64,000 bases of DNA from contig NC_068569.1 of assembly GCF_025698545.1 (NCBI RefSeq), positions 5,642,001-5,706,000 on the forward strand, written 5' to 3'. The notes under the pieces were generated by a model. The model did no database searches and was not told the DNA's origin. It saw nothing but the letters and a program-made list of their open reading frames with translations. The position numbers and the translations under genes were made by a program. Below, in pieces: positions 1 through 44,200 of this stretch; positions within the stretch are counted from its first letter, which is position 1; the number at the start of each line of letters is the position of its first letter. This stretch comes from Gossypium raimondii. Taxonomy: Eukaryota > Streptophyta > Magnoliopsida > Malvales > Malvaceae.

Positions 1-1003
1 AATAATAATTTACTTGTAATTGGATGGGTTAATAAATTAAAATAATATTTGTAATTTAATTTGATAGGGCAAATTTATTCTTTTGACAATGAGTGAGATA
101 ATTTTGTTTAAGATTATTATGCGTTGCTTTTCGGACACTTAATATCACCAGAAAGATGTTTAAATAGATTATATGTAGGAGACTTAAACTCAGATTAAAA
201 ATATGCAAAGCCGGCTAAATTTCGGCCAGAGAAAAAAGCTGTTTCACTTTGGTCGATATGTTGCCGTCGGCCGCCGCTAGAACCGGCAGCTACCGCGAAT
301 CCATTGCCATTGGTTCTTTTATTCTTCAAAACCAATATGTTTTACTTTCTTACCTTAAAAAAAAGGAAATCAACTTGTATTTTTCTTCTAAAAGATGTAT
401 ATATTCAAAGTTGAATTTATAGTTTTCAATTTGATTTTATGGAAGAAGGTTTTTTTTTTAAAAAAAAAAGAAGAATGATAAAATTAAATTAAAATTAGGA
501 GGAGGAGAATAGACAACAAAAAAGGGTATAGTTAGGAGGAAGTATTGATGAATAAATCCATGACTGAAGAAGAAAAACGGCATCGTAATAGTCATAATTG
601 CTAACTAATTAATTTTTACAGCCATGAAAGAAATGATAAAAACACCCACCTAACGTAACAAACATTGCATCTGACAGTCATTATAGACCAACAAATCCAT
701 CAACGCCAACAATACAACATTCATTGCCTTCTTTATTCTCATTCTCTTTCCCATGCTTCATTTTTAAAGGAAACAAAAAACCTTGAACAGAAATCAAATG
801 CAGCGTTAAGATTGTTTGGATTCATATTACATTAATTAATCCTTATGAACAAAACATGCAAAAACGATCATGTCCAATGATCTTTCCAATATAATAATTT
901 AAAAAAAAATAAAAAGAGAAAAAAATTCATAGCTTTAAGGAAAGAAGTAGGATTAAAATGTTCTCTCTTTTTTTTCTCCTTTTTTTTTTTAATTTTTTGT
1001 GAA
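1..1003. other. Gene-poor stretch left of the CLE gene
   Basis: This is AT-rich sequence with no convincing coding frame. A short GC-richer patch at about 245-310 (rich in GCCG and CCGC) stands out but encodes nothing I recognise. The part next to 1003 is probably the 3' untranslated region of the CLE gene, whose stop codon lies at 1004-1006 on the minus strand; it is poly-T and poly-A rich. Confidence 0.5.
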
Positions 1004-1312
1004 TTATCTATTGTGTAAAGGATTTGGACCTGTATGAACTTTTCTCTTTTCATCATCAAAAACTTGATTATCATCACCACCACCATCTTTACCTTTATGA
1101 TGGTCATGATTCCCTGCTTCAAAGCTACCATGGGATTGAAGAACAGGCGGCTTAAACTGTTGAGAAGAAGCTGAAATAGCTGGTTTGAAGCTGCTTCCAT
1201 GGCTTGAACTTGAACTTGAAGATTCTAACTGAAACAGCAAGAACAAAAGCAGTGGGAAGAGGAGACAAAAGCAAATGAACTTTTTGCTTAAACCCATTTG
1301 CTGCTTCAACAA
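1004..1312 (-). CDS. CLE-family signalling peptide precursor (CLE16/17-like)
   Basis: This single-exon frame encodes a 102-residue secreted precursor. Residues 12-28 form a strongly hydrophobic signal peptide (many Phe, Leu and Cys). A low-complexity Ser/His/Gly region follows, and the extreme C-terminus carries the CLE dodecapeptide RKVHTGPNPLHN plus one Arg. In this family the dodecapeptide is cut out after Lys/Arg residues, its prolines are hydroxylated, and it is read at the cell surface by leucine-rich-repeat receptor kinases of the CLV1/BAM type to control meristem or vascular cell fate. The V-H-T-G-P-N-P-L-H-N core matches what I recall for Arabidopsis CLE16 and CLE17. The start at 1312 is the first Met; Met6 is an alternative that would keep the signal peptide. 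Membership of the CLE family is close to certain; the exact orthologue is not settled. Confidence 0.93.
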   Translation of the reverse strand: MLKQQMGLSKKFICFCLLFPLLLFLLFQLESSSSSSSHGSSFKPAISASSQQFKPPVLQSHGSFEAGNHDHHKGKDGGGDDNQVFDDEKRKVHTGPNPLHNR

Positions 1313-4300
1313 TATTCTTCACAATCCAAACACCTACAAATCATGCATGGATTACCACTCCCTTTTAACCCAAAAACCTAGACAGCAAAAAAGGAAAGAA
1401 ACTCTCTTTGAAATCTGATACACTCAAGTCAAAGCTGGCTCCCTGGAGGAAACTGGTCGAAAAACGAAAACTCTATTAATGGCTTCTCTTCTTCTTTTTT
1501 TTTCCCTGATGAGAAAACCTAGGAGTGTGAACCCTGAACTGATAGTAATATATTAAGAAGAGGAGTCAAAATGCATAGGTTTTGGTGCCTAGTAAGTTGC
1601 AATAAAATGGATGGAGAAGGAGTTTGAGTTTGCAGTTTGAACCTTTGATATGTTTTACATGGGAAATAGGCAGAGAGAAAAAGATGAGATGCTGTTTTGT
1701 TTTTGGGTTGGCGAATTGGCTAAGTTTTTTTTATGATTCTGTTGGATATATTAATAGCTATTAATTTCATCTCTCACTTCGGTCTACCATCAATGCGTAT
1801 ATGGTTAAAGCAACACTAGTACTACATAAGTACTTCGTATATTAAAGAGTTGCTAGGAGCTATAAAGGAAAAAACTAAAAACCTAGAAATAGAACTAACC
1901 TCCCACCCGTAACTTTTGAACTCTCTCAATTTCGTATTTGCATTGATCTTTCTTTACAAATGGTTATTATATATAATTTTAATTGATATAATAATAAATT
2001 TAATATTCAATATTTATATATTCTATGCAAATATTGATAGAAGGTGTAAATGTTGTGAACTAAATTTATTAAACAATATGTACAATTGACTAAAAATATT
2101 AATATTATAATTAATTGTCTTTAATTGGTCATTTTAAAATTAATAGGATTAAATTACTCTAACTTCTTAAAATAAAATAATTTACTTAATATCAAAATTA
2201 AGATAAAAAATTCTTTTACCAATAAAAAACTAGAATTAGAAAGGAAAAGAAGTCACCAAAATAATTATCTTACCTAAAATTAGTTTAGGCTCAAACTTCA
2301 ATATAAATTTATAAGCACTTCAGGATTTATAATTGTAGGATAGCTGTAGGAGTTAGATTTATCGTTTAATTATAAATTTCATTTCTTCACTTTATAAATA
2401 TTAAAATATTAGTTTTTTATTTTAATTTATTAAAAAAACAAATAAGTTAACTTAATTATTAGTAAAAATATGAACTTAAATTGCTAAATTTTATTAAATT
2501 ATTATATATAAATTGTTGAATTGTTACTTATTATTATTATTAATTCATTACATATAAATGGTAGAATTGTTAATTACCATATCAACAACTAATAGCAAGG
2601 TCTGACAATATTACTCAATTGAATTAATTTTTAATATTTGAAAAAATTTAAATTCTGACAAATTAAAATTTTTAATTTTTGTAAAATAGAAAGATAAAAT
2701 TCATAATTACAGCTACAACAAACTCCAAAAGCTAAGGAGGAGCATACTGGAGTTAAAAATGTAAATTGTGAATTTAGATTCCATGTTAAGCATCGATTAA
2801 TTTTAAATTAATTGGCAATAGATTAAAATTTCAACTTATATATAGCCACAGATAAAGCTGCAATAAGCCCATTTTATCAAATTTTACAATTTTATCTTCT
2901 TCTTTTTAATAAAAAGTGTAAAGGTTGAAGAAAATATATTTTACAAAAATCAATAATAAAGATTTATATAAGTACAAATACAGTGAAAAGGAGGAAAAAA
3001 AAGGGGTGAAGTTTATAAATAATTATAAATCGTTCATATATTCGGGTGGAATGATTGAATTTTGTAAGCATGTACGTTATACATATAATCTAAATTTCTT
3101 CCAACCTCATGATTCCACTCTCTTTTTCACCTCGATTTTTTTTTCCCTCTCCATCAAACAAGCACTTTAAATTTTGGCTTCAGGAAGAAGCTTGCTATAC
3201 TAAAAAGAAGTGTGTTCCAAATTTGCATTCATTTTATGCATATCCATTACCTTATTTGTCTATTTCCTTTCTGTCTTAATTTCATCTGTTCAGCCACTTT
3301 ATTTGATTTTTTTATGGATTCAAATATAAAAGCCTTAAAGAGATGAGAAAAAATGATATTATGTTTTCAAAAATAAAAATGATACAATAATAATTATTAT
3401 TTAATTCCTCCATTGAATGGGTTCCTGATTTTTTGTTGTCCAAATCTATTAAAAAAAAGGAAAGAATTACCCAACTAACCAAATTATCACCTAAGGTTTG
3501 AAATTTCATCATCATATATAATTATAAATACCAAAGTTTTAGTGAAGAAAAAAAAATAGTCATATCAAAATAGTCAAACAGGTAGGAAATAGGAATTGAC
3601 AGATGGGCTGGAATGATAATTTTTTTCCAAGGAAAAAATGATGTTGTCTTCACTCACTTTTTTCCCCCTTAATATATAATTCAGGGAAAATAATAATTAA
3701 CCCTAGAACAACATGAAAGTCAGTCGACAATGGTGGATCGATTTTAGCAGTTAGGGGCCCAATTCCCTGAAAAACTAGGTAGAATATATGGAAAATCTTC
3801 TTTAACACCATCATTTCTTTTTGAACATCCAACTTATTAGTATTATTATTTGTTTCTGATATTTAGTGTAAATAATTATTTATAACAATTATACCATTTA
3901 TGAATCACATTCCATATAGATAAGGTGAGATTTTGGAAAATTTTCTGAATTTAACTTAATTGTTGTTGATTTTTTCCATCCCAAGAAAAATACCATTCAA
4001 ATTACATTGTAGCATATATATATGTGTGTCTTTCGTTATTTAAAATTTTTCATCTTTTAAATAAAACAATTGTATTTGATATTTATGTTTAATATATATA
4101 AATATATCTGAATCCAGAATCTGATAAGCTAATCATAATTGCAAGCTATTGTTGGGGCAGGCAGTGGTGAAAAGTATGTAGACGTGGAGTATAAAAAGGG
4201 CAGTAACCATCCTCAAGTAGTTGCTTTGGTTGGATACTTTCGGTTCCTACCATTCAAAGCCTCCTAGCTTGGCTAGCTACATGTTTCAGTTGCTCTTGCC

Positions 4301-7215: not shown

Positions 7216-8628
7216 GAAGAAATGTTTTTTTAACCTAAAGAAGAATTTTTTCACCTTTAGTGAATTTCTTTGATTACCTATAACCGGTAAATCCCGGTTT
7301 TGCTTTTATCCTTTTTTTTCAATCTAAAGGCTCCTACTTTTTGAAGCTTATGATAAGCTTTTTGTAAGAACTTTCTGTAGAATTTCCCAGATAGAGTTGT
7401 AGTAAAATTAATTTAAAATTCCAAAGTTTCATAGGAATTTAGCTTAACTCAATCGCCTCTTCCTTCAATCCATGTGCTTTGTTTTGACGCCAAAGACATT
7501 GATGAAGCATGATAACGGTTCCTTTCGAATTTTCTTTAACAAAATTCAGATTAATAAATAGTAGTATTTTTATTTTAATTATCAGTCCAATTGAAACCCA
7601 ACGACACTCAACACTACAATTGATATTGATATCCAATTTTCGGGGTTTTTCTTAGCCCTATAAATATTTTTGGTTCATTTTTTGCCTTTGGAGGCCCTAT
7701 TACAGATTAGATGTTCTAATTTTAAGCCCCTCATTTGGGGTTCAGCGGCCTACCTCCAATATGGAACCCGGCCATGGGGGACGTTATCGAATACCCAATT
7801 TCAGGTTCTATTTTCTATTTCTTTTATATAATCTTTGAATCAACAGCTTACAACAAGCTAAACCCAAATTCACTCTTTTAAGTTTATTTGAGTTCATTCT
7901 AATGGAATTACTAAGTTATTAAAATGATTTTAAATGTCAAATTATAAATTTTATATATTATATAATTATTTAAATATATGATAAAATTATACTTTTGTTC
8001 CTTAAATTTTGGCATAATGATATTTTGACTCTCCAACTTTATAAAAATGTTATTTTAACCTTTCATTTAAATTTTCACTTTTTTAGTTATTGAATTTGCA
8101 TTGTTTGTTAATTAAAAAATTAACGTTTGTTAACTTTACTAACGTGACATACACAAGGATTGGCACGTTAGCAATTAATTAAACTTTTAAAAATTAAAAT
8201 ATAATTTTTATACTTTTAAAATAATTTTATAAATTCTTTGATTTTTTAAAATTTAAAATTAATTAATTTTTAATGTGATGTGGATGCCATATCAGTAAAG
8301 TTAACAAATGTTTACTTTTTCATCTTTTTGGGTAATTTTGACAAATAATACAAGTTTAATGGCTAAAATGATAAAAAATTAAATATAGAGCTAAAATTAT
8401 TTTTAAAAAGTTGAAGGGCCAAATAAGTTATTATGACTAAATATTTTAATGTTTTATCATCTAATTAATATATTATTACTTAAATTAATGATAAAATTAA
8501 TACATTTTATTTAATTTTGTAGACTCATTCTTTTTGTTTACATTTTTTTTTTCACTTAAGAAGTTGCTCATATTTTCCAAGTCCAGACTCCAGAGTAGTC
8601 TTGATTTTTACAAACAAAAACTCAGAAA
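7216..8628. other. Intergenic stretch and promoter region of the SNAPIN-like gene
   Basis: No coding frame is supported. It contains the inverted-repeat element at about 7979-8450. The last 150 bases (8480-8628) lie just upstream of the SNAPIN-like start codon and are the likely promoter and 5' untranslated region. Confidence 0.45.
7979..8450. repeat. MITE-like inverted-repeat element
   Basis: The left arm runs from about 7979 and includes TTAACTTTACTAACGTGACA near 8131-8150. The right arm includes the partner ATCAGTAAAGTTAACAAATG near 8291-8310 and ends with a run that mirrors the left edge (AAAATTATACTTTTGTTCC against GAGCTAAAATTATTTTTAAA). Similar loose inverted repeats recur in the window (21.4-21.7 kb). 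No clear target duplication was found, so the superfamily is unknown. Confidence 0.5.
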
Positions 8629-21735: not shown

Positions 21736-22749
21736 ATACAGTTTAACTGAAAAATTGCAAGTAAAATTGTTCATGAAACTCTTAAGAGTTACAGACTGTT
21801 AGAAAATGTTTTTCCACAGAGGAGTCTGAATTGTTATATTTATTTTTAGAATATAATAAAATAAAAAATAACTGACATCAAATTAAATCCATTTGTGAAG
21901 TTTTTTTACTTCACTCTTTCGATCCTCTATTACCCCAACACTTACTCTTAACGCAATCAAGTGTTTTTTTTTAAATCAAATCATACTTCCCAATTTGGAT
22001 GGAAATTAATGATATCTTAAAGAGGAATTTTAAAATTTGAAATCACAATCTCACGTTTAGATAGGAATTTCAAAACCCGAAATTACAATCCACGTGATGC
22101 TTGCATAAAAAAGATTATTTGGCTAACAATACTAAATTTAGTAATATAGAAATAATCTCATTTTATTTGACTACTGAGGATTAAAGATGGAATGTTGAAT
22201 TTTTTTATTATATAATTTTGGCCCTTTTAACTCAAACAAAATGCAAAAAGAAATTCTAAGTTCCCCATTAGACGTTAAATTCCCTTGCACAAAAGGAAAA
22301 GAACATTATAATTAACAAATCACTATTTAAATTAAAATTTATATGATACATTAATTTAAGTTGACCTAATTATAATGAATATATATATTCGAAAAATCTC
22401 ATAAGTTCTAATCATATCTTTTTTTTACACAAAATTTAGAACTATTCATAGCTCTTCCTCAACTCATTAATAAAAAGATAATGTGCTTCAGCACACTTGA
22501 ACCTACTTTCTCCTGTATTGACAATAATGCGCATGCCAATTTATAATTAATATTTATATGTAAAGACATTTTTATAATTGGCACATTCCATTTAATTTTC
22601 ACATCTTTTAATCTTTAAACCTACATTTTTGTCAAATCACTCTAAAATGAATGAAAAAAACTAACTTTTGTTAACTTTGCTGACGTTATTATCTTCTAAT
22701 TTAAAAAAAGTTACTTTTTTTATATTATCAATCCGAAATTTAAATAATA

Positions 22750-22912
22750 GAATACATTTTTTGGGTGAATTATAAGAGGAGGTCAAAGCTCTAATAGCAA
22801 CGAGACTAGTGTGATTTGAATTCAGGTCACACCTAGGATGGTGACCACCCTGAATATCAGGCTAACACGCGGAGTTCGATAATTAACAGCTTGATCAGTG
22901 TTATTAATCATT
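22750..22912. repeat. Possible SINE-like fragment
   Basis: This GC-richer patch in AT-rich DNA contains AGGAGGTCAAAGCTCTAAT and TGATTTGAATTCAGGTCACA; the latter is reminiscent of a degraded polymerase III B box (GGTTCGANNCC). No poly-A tail or target duplication was confirmed. Confidence 0.25.
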
Positions 22913-23285
22913 GTCTCCTAAATTTTTTTAATTAAAATTATCCCTTAAAATGTTACTTTGCAAATGATTTTTACTCATGTACTATTTATTAAGAACAGGC
23001 TAGCAATTAAATAGTTTAGAATTTTTTAAAAAAATTCTTAACTTGGGTCAATTGAATAATAAAATTTATTATATTAAAGTCAAACAGAGGCGGAGCCTCT
23101 AAGGAGCTAAAGGGTTCAAGATTTGCGGAATTAGATTAAGTTGACCCGCTCAAAAAAAAGTGGGTTCATAATTGAATTAAGAAAACAAACTAAAACTCTA
23201 TTGTTATTTATGTTTTCTATATTTAAACGTTTCCAATTAATTGGATTATCAGTTATAATTAGGTCAACTTAAATTATTTTTTAAT

Positions 23286-23572
23286 GGGTCAACTACAAAA
23301 ATAGTCACTTTTGTTTGCCTCAGGTTACATTTTAGTCAATTATGTTTGAAATGTTACGTTTTAGTCACTTATGTTATTATTTTGTTACGAAGTGATCACT
23401 CTTCCGTTAAGTTTCGTTATCTCCTTAACGGTAATCCTACGTGGCAGTCTAACTAGATTTTAAGTGCCAACTTGGATTTCCTAATGGGATGAGAATTGAT
23501 TTTTAATTAAATAAATTTAATTAATTAAAAAATTTAAACCCTAAATCTTAGTTAAAAAACCGTTCATCTCCC
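23286..23572 (+). repeat. Left terminal inverted repeat of the Pack-MULE
   Basis: It is the near-perfect inverse of 24302-24588. It starts GGGTCAACTACAAAAATAGT and ends near CCGTTCATCTCCC, and contains the motif CTCCTTAACGGTAATCC. Confidence 0.9.
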
Positions 23573-24007
23573 GCACTTGGGTTTTTGCATCTTTAATTTC
23601 TTGATTAATTGGTGAGTTCTTTTCATTCTTCAATCACTTAATGCATCGTTTTGTTTCTTTAATGTTTAATGTTATATTGAATTCATTGTTAAAGATTGTT
23701 TCTTTGGTCTATTATTTGAATGAGAGACACATGGATTTTAAGTTTTGAATTCACTGTTAAAGTGTCTCAAAAGTTTGAATTTCCAATTATTTTTTTAACT
23801 TTATTGGGGTTAACAATTTTTTTAAAGCTTGAACTCCTGTTTTTTCCATTGACGTAGGGTGTTGGAATTCACTGTTTAAAGGTTCCCATTTATTAAAGCA
23901 TGAATTCACTGTTAAAGCGTCTCAAAAGCTATGAACTCTTTTTTTGCCATTGATGTAGGGTGTTGGAGATTCATACTAATTTACATGTGATTTAAGTTTT
24001 TAGAAAA

Positions 24008-24253
24008 ATGGGTAATTTTTTAGGGTCAGAATGGATCCCTCAAAGCAAGAAACAAACCAAAAAAAAAGCTTCTAAACCGATGGCTAGGAAGGAAACCCAA
24101 GAATTCCAATTTGTTGTTTACAATACCATGACTCAGCAAAAGAGGTTTTCAAACCCAAAACCCTGAAAAGTTCACATGTATGTCTCATGTGACTATGATT
24201 TCAGTCACCTTGGACATGCTCGTGCTGCCGTTTCCTTTGATGTCCTTTACAGG
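24008..24253 (+). pseudogene. Captured first-exon fragment of cytosolic cysteinyl-tRNA synthetase
   Basis: Read on the plus strand from about 24080, the sequence gives MARKETQEFQF, then VVYNTMTQQKRFSNPKP, a stop, KVHMYVSCDYDFSHLGHARA and AVSFDVLYR. This is the N-terminal catalytic start of CysRS: the first zinc-ligand Cys region and the HIGH-type motif (HLGHAR). It stops at TACAG followed by GTGCAT, an apparent exon-end splice donor, so the copy was taken from genomic DNA and includes the exon-intron border. Compared with the plant enzyme as I recall it, there is a stop after NPKP and a short deletion after MYV (the CGVTAYD region reads SCDYD). The aminoacylation domain is not present beyond this exon, so it cannot encode an enzyme. 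Confidence 0.88.
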
Positions 24254-24301
24254 TGCATAATTTGTCTTAGAGAAACCCCTTAAAGAAAATTAAAAAATGG
24301 G

Positions 24302-24588
24302 GGGAGATGAATGGTTTTTTAACTAAGATTTAGGGTTTAAATTTTTTAATTAATTAAATTTATTTAATTAAAAATCTATTCTCATCCCATTAGGAAATCT
24401 AAGTTGGCACTTAAAATCTAGTTAGACTGCCACGTAGGATTACCGTTAAGGAGATAACGAAACTTAACGGAAGAGTGATCACTTCGTAACAAAATAATAA
24501 CATAAGTGACTAAAACGTAACATTTCAAACATAAGTGACTAAAATGTAGCATGAGACAAACAAAAGTGACTATTTTTGTAGTTTACCC
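24302..24588 (-). repeat. Right terminal inverted repeat of the Pack-MULE
   Basis: It is the inverse partner of 23286-23572. Its outer end on the minus strand starts GGGTAAACTACAAAAATAGT and is followed immediately by the 9-bp duplication TTTTTTAAT. Confidence 0.9.
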
Positions 24589-24934
24589 TTTTTTAATAGA
24601 GTTTATCTAAGAATATCAAACTTTAATATTTTTGTCGCCTTTATACTTATATTTTTAACATTTTCTTATCTTTTAAATTCCAATTGAAGTCAAATTAAGA
24701 GGAGATTAAGGGTGTGTGTTTTTAATTTATCAAATAACAATTAAATTACAAAATTAATATATTGTATGTATATATGTGAGCACGTGAATAATAACAAAAT
24801 AGATTGGTTTATGAGGAATTCAGTTGAAAAGGTTACCGCAAATTAGCAATAATATGTTCCATCACTTCATATGGAATTGAAATATTTTTCTTGAGAATTT
24901 AGTATTTTAAATGCCCTGTTAAGATACGCCTCTG

Positions 24935-41208: not shown

Positions 41209-44200
41209 ATGGCCGTGGTTGGAGTATTGGCTTTACAGGGATCTTTTAACGAACACATAGCAGGCAATAATCTTTCACTGATATTCCAATTGTTTTGTTC
41301 ATCAGTTTTTTATGTTTGGCTGAAAAAATTATATTATATGTTTTTTTTTTTGCAGCGCTAAGGAGGTTAGGAATGAAAGGAGTGGAAATAAGGAAGCCAG
41401 AGCAGCTTCAAAGTATCAGCTCTCTTATCATTCCTGGTGGAGAAAGCACCAGCATGGCTAAGCTTGCTGAGTTCCACAATCTTGTATGTTCTCTCGCTCT
41501 CTTTTTCATCTTATATATATATATATATATATATATTTGTTTTAGCTTTAGTCATATACTATAAGCGATTAAATTCTGATTCATTTCGAGAAAGTTGGAT
41601 TCTTTTTGTTTTCTCATTATTCTGGTTTTAAAAAACATGGATGACCCTAGACGCCGTTTTCGCTTGTTTTGTTGTTGCTTGCTTTTTGCTAGTAGTTAAA
41701 GCAAAAAATAACTGCTAAGATTTGAGATCATTTTGATCAGAAATGAGTGAATAATTAGAACGAAGTTATAATTCAAACAAAGATCTTCCATGGTAATATA
41801 AATTCATGGAATTTATCATCATGAATGTTAAATTTAGTTTCTATTGTTTGCTTTAGTCATTAGAAGGTAAAGGTGGCAATGGCATAAGATAAGGGCTACT
41901 TTGGTGGTGTTGATCTTGGCTATTTTGGACTTTGAGGTGCTTTGGTACTCACGATTGACCTTCTTTGATCTGTGAAAAAGGGTTGATGCATGGAGGATGA
42001 GTTTGGCACTGTTAGATCTTTTAAAGGATATATATATAACTGAAGACTTTGCTCATTAACAAAGAATTTCTAAACCTAATTTACTTGAGTTGTTTATAGT
42101 GATCTTGGCTATTTTGGACTTTGAGGTGCTTTGGTACTCACGATTGACCTTCTTTGATCTGTGAAAAAGGGTTGATGCATTGAGGATGAGTTTGGCACTG
42201 TTAGATCTTTTAAAGGATATATATATAGCTGAAGACTTTGCTCATTAACAAAGAATTTCTAAACCTAATTTACTTGAGTTGTTTATAGTGTTCAAATGGG
42301 TTCTTTGCAAAGAGTGACTGACAAAATCAACGCGTTTATTTCCTGTGTTATTGCTGGAGATGAATAAGATTTGGACTTTCCAATCCCATCTTGATCTTGA
42401 TTTTTAGTCTCGATGCACTCACTGGTCCAAACATTTTAGATGAGTCAGCAGTTGTCGTAGCATTCTCAGTTGAGAACATTGATAAATGTCTCCTTTGCAT
42501 TTATATGGTTAATATCTTTTTTCATTTATGGTCAGTTTCCAGCTCTGCGGGAATTTGTGCAAATGGGGAAGCCGGTTTGGGGGACTTGTGCAGGTCTTAT
42601 ATTTTTGGCAAACAAAGCTGTTGGTATGTTTCTGTTCTCCCCTCAGCCTCCTCCAGTTTTAGATTCTGCATATTAAATTTGTAGAGTGTATATAGTTTGC
42701 AGCAAGCTGTTTTTCAAAATGAGATCATTCAAAAAGTTTTGAATTTGAAATTGGTGGTGCAACTTTTTCAGGACAGAAAGACGGAGGACAGGAATTAGTT
42801 GGGGGTCTGAATTGCACTGTCCATAGAAATTACTTTGGGAGTCAGGTAATTACATATGCCTTCTGTTTTACTACATATGATGCTTATAAAGTGTATAGAG
42901 TGCTATATTGCATCGTTATTATTGAATAAAAAGACATGCATTTAGTTAAATTGGAATCCAAGAGAAATTGCAGAACTTCCAAGTTTGCTAATCAGCATTT
43001 TAAGATACAAATATGTTCTTTGAAGAAAGACCGCTCACAGAAAATGGGTCCAAAACCTTAAATGACTATGGGTATGATAATGTTATAGTGATGTATGGAT
43101 GTATTAAAAATGTTTATGTCAAATGGGTAGGGGAAGAATCAGAGCAGTCTAAAAAATGACCTTGCTTTCACTGATTTCACTAGGATATGGTAGTCACATT
43201 CTCTATCATGACTTAAGGCTTTGCATGTTGGTGGAGTTGTTATTACTTGAAGATATCAACTTTTTCGCCATTCCCATTTATGCTGATAAATTTGCTTAAA
43301 TAGGCTTGTCAGTTTCAAGAACTGAAATACAGACTTTAAGAAAACCTTCTGTCATGAAGGTTTCACATACTAGCTTTTCACTTTTTCCGTTTTTATATTT
43401 AGGAAGTAGAAACCTCTTCCACTTACTGAAATTAATTTCAAGTTACGAAGAAGATTTCAACTCCTCCTATCCTTTTGGTTTAAGCTTCTAACATTGAACT
43501 AAATTGTTTGTTTTTAACAAATCAACTTTTTTTAGATCCAAAGCTTTGAGGCAGAGCTCTTAGTGCCAGAACTTGCCTCCCAAGAAGGTGGCCCTGAGAC
43601 ATTTCGTGGTGTTTTCATCCGAGCTCCTGCTGTCCTTGAAGTGGGGCCAGAAGTTGAAGTGCTTGCTGATTATCCTATCCCATCAAATAAAGTTCTATAT
43701 TCAAGTTCAGCTGTTGAAATTCAAGAGGTATACCGGCACTCATCTATTGAATCCGTCTTCATCGGAATGGTCGAAAGTAAAACAATGAAATTTTATAGAC
43801 ATTCCTTCAACTAAATGAGTCTAGATTTGATGATCATGCTTTCCTATACATTACCAAATATCTCATTGCTGACCTATTTCGTTGTTTATTTCATTGTGTT
43901 TAACTTCAGCTATGTTAGTTCTTGTCATCTAAAAATTTTGGGTATTTCAGGAGTCTGCCGTGCCTGAAAAGAAAGTGATAGTTGCCATAAAGCAAGGAAA
44001 CTTGCTGGGGACTGCTTTCCACCCTGAGTTGACTGCAGATACGAGATGGTATAAAGAGATGTTAACTATCCTTTAAAATCTTCAATTTTGCTAATGATCT
44101 GAGGTTTTAAATGTTTCTCTTTTTTTGTTGCTAAGTCAAGGTTGTAAATGGTTGCTTGTGCAGGCATAGTTACTTTCTAAAGATGGTAAGAGATGTCGGA

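Follow-up and report, generated by a model that had tools for sequence, protein, structure and literature searches.

Pack-MULEs, as known from maize, rice, Arabidopsis and tomato, are multicopy elements with long terminal inverted repeats (TIRs), a 9–10-bp target site duplication and a captured host gene fragment which retains intron sequence, and they have no transposase of their own. Some Mutator-like elements (MULEs) carry ULP1-like domains beside the transposase. In parts of the descriptions of two annotation pipelines (PMC8903248, PMC4858842), transposase-bearing elements are kept separate from the Pack or non-autonomous class, and a passage of the first of these assumes independent capture of the same chromosomal sequence to be rare. 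Gene acquisition by MULEs is described, in passages of three papers, as not understood or not settled (PMC3310237, PMC13317346, PMC8277862), the routes given in such passages including template switching with transposition (PMC8277862) and the fusion of neighbouring elements (PMC13317346). For Ssk-FB4, a multicopy Pack-MULE of Drosophila, part of one paper describes a gene captured together with its upstream region and spread with new 9–10-bp duplications, as is the case here, although the gene and the kingdom are others and nearly the whole gene was captured (PMC8277862).

The Gossypium raimondii element analysed in this work, which carries the start of a cysteinyl-tRNA synthetase (CysRS) gene, shares all the features listed above for the plant Pack-MULEs. 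Nothing essential differs, although CysRS makes up the minor share of what was captured, the larger share coming from a repeat which is fused to the donor gene and forms its leader. A literature search found no paper combining Pack-MULE and cysteinyl-tRNA synthetase. The earlier note on this DNA had regarded the tying of a MULE to a named host gene as unusual, a view which could not be maintained, such cases being not unusual in the literature, as parts of three papers indicate (PMC8903248, PMC3310237, PMC4858842).

Structure of the window element

The window, i.e. the whole stretch of 64,000 nucleotides that was analysed (C5:5642001-5706000), holds a 1303-bp element at positions 23286-24588. 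Its features, in window positions, are the following:

23277..23285, no strand: target site duplication, left copy TTTTTTAAT, perfect match to the right copy
23286..23572, plus strand: left TIR, 287 bp, 279/287 against the right arm; also found at the ends of the C13 element and of the other CysRS copies
23573..23576, plus strand: GCAC, 4 bp of filler between the left TIR and the captured piece; no donor match there, varies between copies
23577..24030, plus strand: 5' leader captured from the CysRS donor, formed by the front part of R, a dispersed repeat unrelated to CysRS; colinear with C12:53690488-53690943
24031..24252, plus strand: captured first coding exon of CysRS, including a motif which we take to be HLGH; frame broken (net indel -8) in the donor alignment
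24253..24282, plus strand: CysRS intron 1 up to nt 30, with the GT of the splice donor kept in the donor alignment
24283..24301, plus strand: inner edge of the family's right TIR, resembling the TIR edge of members without CysRS
24302..24588, minus strand: right TIR, 287 bp, 279/287 against the left arm
24589..24597, no strand: target site duplication, right copy, perfect match to the left copy

The TIRs align without gaps over 287 bp each, with 97.2% identity and eight mismatches, so that the length and the mismatches counted by eye in the earlier note proved exact. The 9-bp duplication it had proposed is also perfect, abutting both ends of the element. The same word occurs 13 times within the window and, for this reason, is weak evidence for a duplication when taken alone; when 9-mer pairs from the flanks of this element were compared at all offsets, 3 of 84,681 comparisons agreed. 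Element positions 997-1303 match many other family members, and no transposase is present inside, the interior being made up of donor DNA, the 4-bp filler and the TIR edge. The element is a non-autonomous MULE (Pack-MULE), a standard one of an already known kind: it lies outside the parent gene, has no transposase of its own and keeps intron sequence, and it shows the long TIRs of MULEs, in which hundreds of bp are common (287 bp here; 287–307 bp are shared by other members), and, like the other members tested, a duplication of 9–10 bp, within the 8–11 bp typical of MULEs.

The peptide encoded by exon 1 of the donor gene (77 aa) matches CysRS in the PDB (E 3.5e-15) and the cysS family TIGR00435 (E 4.5e-17), the score of 62 bits lying below the whole-protein cut-off of 340 since the query is a single exon. 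The exon-intron border (TACAG, then GTGCAT) is identical in the element and in the parent gene, whose next exon continues the frame. A Pack-MULE with the first coding exon of CysRS, as had been proposed, is thus supported. The further reading of the interior as the CysRS N-terminus up to an intact border stands in part: the border is equal to that of the parent, but the CysRS exon is restricted to 24031-24252, the remaining 454 bp upstream (23577-24030) being the non-CysRS leader of the donor, and the exon cannot be read in one frame, translation from the ATG meeting a stop after 14 codons.

Elsewhere in the window, a 189-bp unit is found as two tandem copies, 98% alike (41911-42290), and an AT-rich near-palindrome of ~440 bp (8006-8442; 66% in self-comparison) is perhaps an old fold-back element.

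The donor gene

Element positions 292-997 (window 23577-24282) correspond, unbroken, to C12:53690488-53691203 (94.6% over 717 columns), which is the start of the CysRS gene g12b (C12:53.69 Mb); the nucleotide-level match to a CysRS locus of the same genome, on which the proposal of a capture depended, does exist. In the sequence examined, no TIR was found at the g12b locus, upstream of this gene or at g12a. The homology of g12b with the other genes begins exactly at the ATG, with 94.2% identity over 4451 columns to g12a and 91.1% over 4474 to g6, while the likeness between g12a and g6 runs 267 bp further upstream of it. The leader of g12b is the front part of repeat R, fused exactly at the ATG (L013 ~1272-1956, C12:53690259-53690943), a switch which makes g12b a chimeric gene copy. 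R was found at seven other loci, with no TIR within the ~1.5 kb examined on each side and with no CysRS after it and, among the places found, it is joined to CysRS only in g12b and in the elements of the family.

As read from the donor alignment, the leader, exon 1 and the intron piece of g12b were evidently copied together by the MULE. Since intron sequence is kept (30 nt of intron 1 with the splice donor), DNA and not spliced RNA was copied, which bears out the capture from genomic DNA that had been put forward. Exon 1 of g12b is itself intact, and its R leader is a possible candidate for a new promoter of a duplicated tRNA synthetase gene. Besides, C9:39252999-39253489 matches g12b upstream positions 753-1240 at 94%, and the next 500 bases at C9 (L086) do not match g12b.

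Copies of the element and their target sites

The genome (751 Mb, 281 contigs) was searched with exon 1 (query window 24004-24285), which gave 16 matches, all 16 candidates being scored: 12 short copies, the window's included, three CysRS genes (g12a and g12b, 35 kb apart on C12, and g6 on C6) and a single long element, on C13. The exon-1 DNA search missed a fourth CysRS locus, on C10, which came to light by protein family; upstream of it there is a weak TIR-like match (96 bp, 75%; L078 123-217, C10:21619645-21619739).

A perfect 9- or 10-bp duplication was present in 11 of the 11 short copies with both ends covered, and also in the C13 element and in two members with other interiors, L019 and L020. 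This amounts to 14 of 14 members tested, a count which leaves out L011, whose right TIR is interrupted and has its outer end beyond the sequence examined, and L056, L082, L083 and L084, with one end only. When 9-mer pairs from the flanks of the members were compared at all offsets, 0 to 17 agreed of 67,512 to 84,681 comparisons. The perfect duplications of the short copies indicate that the CysRS capture was inherited and not remade in each of them. The capture, which had been placed in the window element, has to be moved elsewhere: the element does hold captured sequence, but it is one of 12 copies and the capture was not made there.

L019 (242-1806, interior of 1565 bp) and L020 (919-1807, interior of 889 bp) belong to the same TIR family, with duplications of 10 and 9 bp, respectively, and a Pfam search with the interior of L019, in six frames at E 0.01, had no match. 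The family is large, with 2010 first-look candidates to the whole element, 40 of which were scored. As regards an empty insertion site, no second full-length copy of the left flank (window 22700-23285) was found among the best 40 of 157 candidates, the other 39 of the 40 scored matches being a short dispersed repeat within about 22700-22896. Window ~22739-22896 is a short repeat with many 71–82% matches genome-wide.

Transposase-bearing relatives

The long element on C13 (C13:40858024-40869391, 11.4 kb) has TIRs 93–95% identical to those of the window element, an inverted similarity extending to 659 bp at 92.9%, and a perfect 10-bp target duplication. Three domains were matched in it: PF10551 (MULE; E 2.2e-7, 31.7 bits, cut-off 27.6), PF04434 (SWIM; 37.6 bits in an open piece, cut-off 19.6) and PF03108 (DBD_Tnp_Mut; 26.2 bits in the open piece alone, cut-off 25, and 21.7 when stops are read as X). 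MULE and SWIM lie in one frame only with stops read as X, and DBD_Tnp_Mut lies in another; Pfam had no match for a third open piece and, for a fourth, only a zinc knuckle scoring under the cut-off. By these matches, MULE transposase domains are present in a region which reads as frame-broken. A genome search with PF10551, in which the best 150 of 2055 candidates were inspected by eye, gave none at the transposase places of the family, the domain being later found directly in the C13 element.

The same element holds g12b positions ~740-3547 minus two gaps (1069-1154 and 1334-1731), so that the upstream region, a portion of the leader and the first exons are covered. Some of the upstream sequence copied sits within both TIRs, and acquired sequence inside extended TIRs has been reported for MULEs in a passage of PMC3310237. 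From the ATG on, C13 and g12b are 95.5% identical over 1573 sites, and 24 informative sites join C13 with g12b, against 2 and 2 for the alternatives. A further long element, on C7 (L056), has a left end as in C13 with a shorter leader piece, no CysRS exon 1 match in the genome search and, further along, a transposase-like stretch at C7:1523451. As in MULEs with a further gene, such as those with ULP1-like domains, both transposase domains and a foreign gene piece are found in C13 between long TIRs. In comparison with the ULP1-like elements, the extra piece of C13 is a decaying fragment with a living donor and not a conserved gene.

In four columns of the alignment the donor and outgroup are alike and C13 and the short copies both differ from them. 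At columns 470 and 636, one base is common to C13 and all 12 short copies, the donor and outgroups agreeing on another; at column 254 C13 and the short copies differ from each other, and column 263 lies in a T-run filled in seven of the 12 short copies, four of which have the C13 base. Columns 470 and 636 favour a single capture of g12b followed by deletions, from which both the short copies and C13 would probably descend. That the 12 short copies represent a separate capture from the same donor, and not from a C13-type element, is a tenable but somewhat doubtful alternative. It accounts for the differing junctions, given that in the short copies the TIR passes at 287 to donor position 1501 and C13 keeps ~740-1334 and is without 1334-1731, and it agrees with a maximum-likelihood tree which does not join the short copies and C13 against the donor. 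In this tree (17 rows: three R copies besides the donor, C13 and the 12 short copies, without the g12a and g6 rows, which hold the exon only), both supports are high in two of the 14 inner branches. The alternative has to face the two shared columns, and no column supports any other grouping of short copies, C13 and donor.

A probable second capture, from a different paralog

Six further places contain the 3' half of CysRS, in two cases split, with 86–91% identity to g12b; in five the match starts at one and the same query base, and in the sixth it starts three bases later. Three of them (C2, C5 and C13:7.17 Mb) lie ~0.7 kb from a stretch 92–95% identical to the C13 transposase region, and no transposase-like stretch was listed near the other three. 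In the C2 copy (L084), the one read of the six, the family TIR (90–91%) is followed by ~60–75 bp and then by CysRS, which runs past the stop codon from an exon that, read by eye, presumably holds the KMSKS motif. With gaps excluded, this copy is 95.7% identical to g6 and 90.6% to both g12a and g12b, and 53 informative sites join it with g6, against 0 and 0 for the others, a pattern which points to a different paralog, g6 on C6, as its donor. Their shared junction suggests the same TIR family and the same donor for the other five copies. Most likely, judging from these sequence patterns, one MULE family captured CysRS at least twice, from two paralogs.

The two captured parts are complementary, the 5' half with HLGH coming from C12 and the 3' half with KMSKS from C6, and both lie just inside the TIR opposite the transposase. 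A broken family TIR is found ~0.7 kb upstream of the g6 ATG (C6:28249673-28250170, L035 262-759), with a transposase-like stretch ~12 kb further upstream. In view of this TIR, a neighbour-capture route may apply rather than random template switching; however, in so large a family a TIR beside a donor gene may be due to chance. We consider it unlikely that CysRS loci are preferred donors, with two transposase-bearing lineages copying complementary halves into the same place and with capture perhaps following insertion beside the gene.

Three living genes underlie the assignment of two donors, a pattern which a paralog since lost could mimic. A single capture of a whole CysRS gene from such a paralog, 5' like C12 and 3' like C6, would leave the elements as halves after deletions, in keeping with the position of both pieces on the same side of the transposase region, beside the TIR, in the same orientation and without overlap. 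Nevertheless, each half has its own living donor by the site patterns (24:2:2 and 53:0:0) and, among the places found, C12 alone has a CysRS gene with the R leader, which makes this single origin quite improbable and leaves two captures as the preferred reading.

State and age of the captured exon

Exon 1 is open from the ATG throughout in one of the 12 short copies (L006), L003 keeps the frame with ATA in place of ATG, and in the other ten the frame is shifted, some of the shifts falling in A-runs, where an assembly error is possible. The splice donor GT is kept in all 12. Most likely, the captured exon is a passenger in decay from which no product is made. A role for it, e.g. through small RNAs damping the parent CysRS gene, is hardly to be expected, even though such a role would suit an element which has inverted arms, is present in 12 copies and carries, in sense orientation, the 5' part of a gene that has living copies, and even though part of PMC3310237 credits Pack-MULEs in general with a potential for regulating their parental genes; the loss of the frame in ten of 12 copies, and of the start codon in one more, counts against a protein role only.

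Among 11 copies compared by local alignment, the window copy shows the highest TIR identity (97.2%, against 87.3–96.5% in the others). Four of its eight TIR mismatches (alignment columns 5, 41, 55 and 278) are private to one arm of this copy, as judged against the same arm in other copies (12 left and 11 right, C13 included); the base at column 278 recurs in one other copy, but on the opposite arm. The other four (columns 34, 39, 190 and 213) are common to other copies and, therefore, predate the insertion in the window. With gaps excluded, the interior of the window element shows 97.2–97.3% identity with L002 and L003, and 95.7% with the donor. Substitution rates of 1.3e-8 to 3.5e-9, taken from general background, turn the Jukes-Cantor distance of 0.028 between the TIRs into 1.1 to 4.1 My, a dating which overstates the age of the insertion since half of the mismatches are older than it. 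By these comparisons, the window insertion is evidently young and the capture older, so that the word "recent", used earlier for the whole, fits the insertion more than the capture.

Origin and spread of the family

Taken together, the data are very probably explained by a Pack-MULE which arose by capture from g12b and whose short form spread in trans, with a separate capture from C6 and the exon as a passenger. An ancestral element of this TIR family would have copied genomic DNA from g12b, comprising the leader, exon 1 and more. The short form, two TIRs around a ~706-bp piece, would then have been moved in trans by the transposase of a MULE of the same TIR family to 12 places, its TIRs being recognised by this putative enzyme and the element being repeatedly cut out and reinserted with the CysRS piece as passenger. 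Another lineage of the family would have taken the CysRS 3' half from the C6 paralog, as suggested by the copy read on C2. The reverse direction, in which a MULE supplied the C12 gene with its leader and the elements carry nothing but their own sequence, could appeal to donor ~740-1334 lying also just inside the TIR of the C13 and C7 elements, but is very improbable, since there is no TIR at the C12 gene in the sequence examined, donor 753-1240 is also found at C9, including ~85 bp missing from both elements, and R stands at seven loci with no TIR in the examined flanks, which means that the elements hold a contiguous mosaic otherwise present only at C12.

Implications

The window element alone is one more Pack-MULE. 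It is of modest added interest that one MULE family is likely to have captured CysRS more than once and that a transposase-bearing member contains the captured gene. If the short copies were a separate capture, this family would have made three CysRS captures, counting that from C6. As regards the assumed rarity of independent capture, the family offers repeated capture from one gene family, although from two paralogs and of different parts. The C13 element bends the separation made in annotation directly: by the published definitions, as worded in parts of PMC8903248 and PMC4858842, a Pack-MULE has no transposase, and C13 falls outside the class on this feature, so that the published rules would set it aside. 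Finally, the family may be useful, since donors, short derivatives and transposase-bearing relatives are found in one genome, with junctions that can be read.
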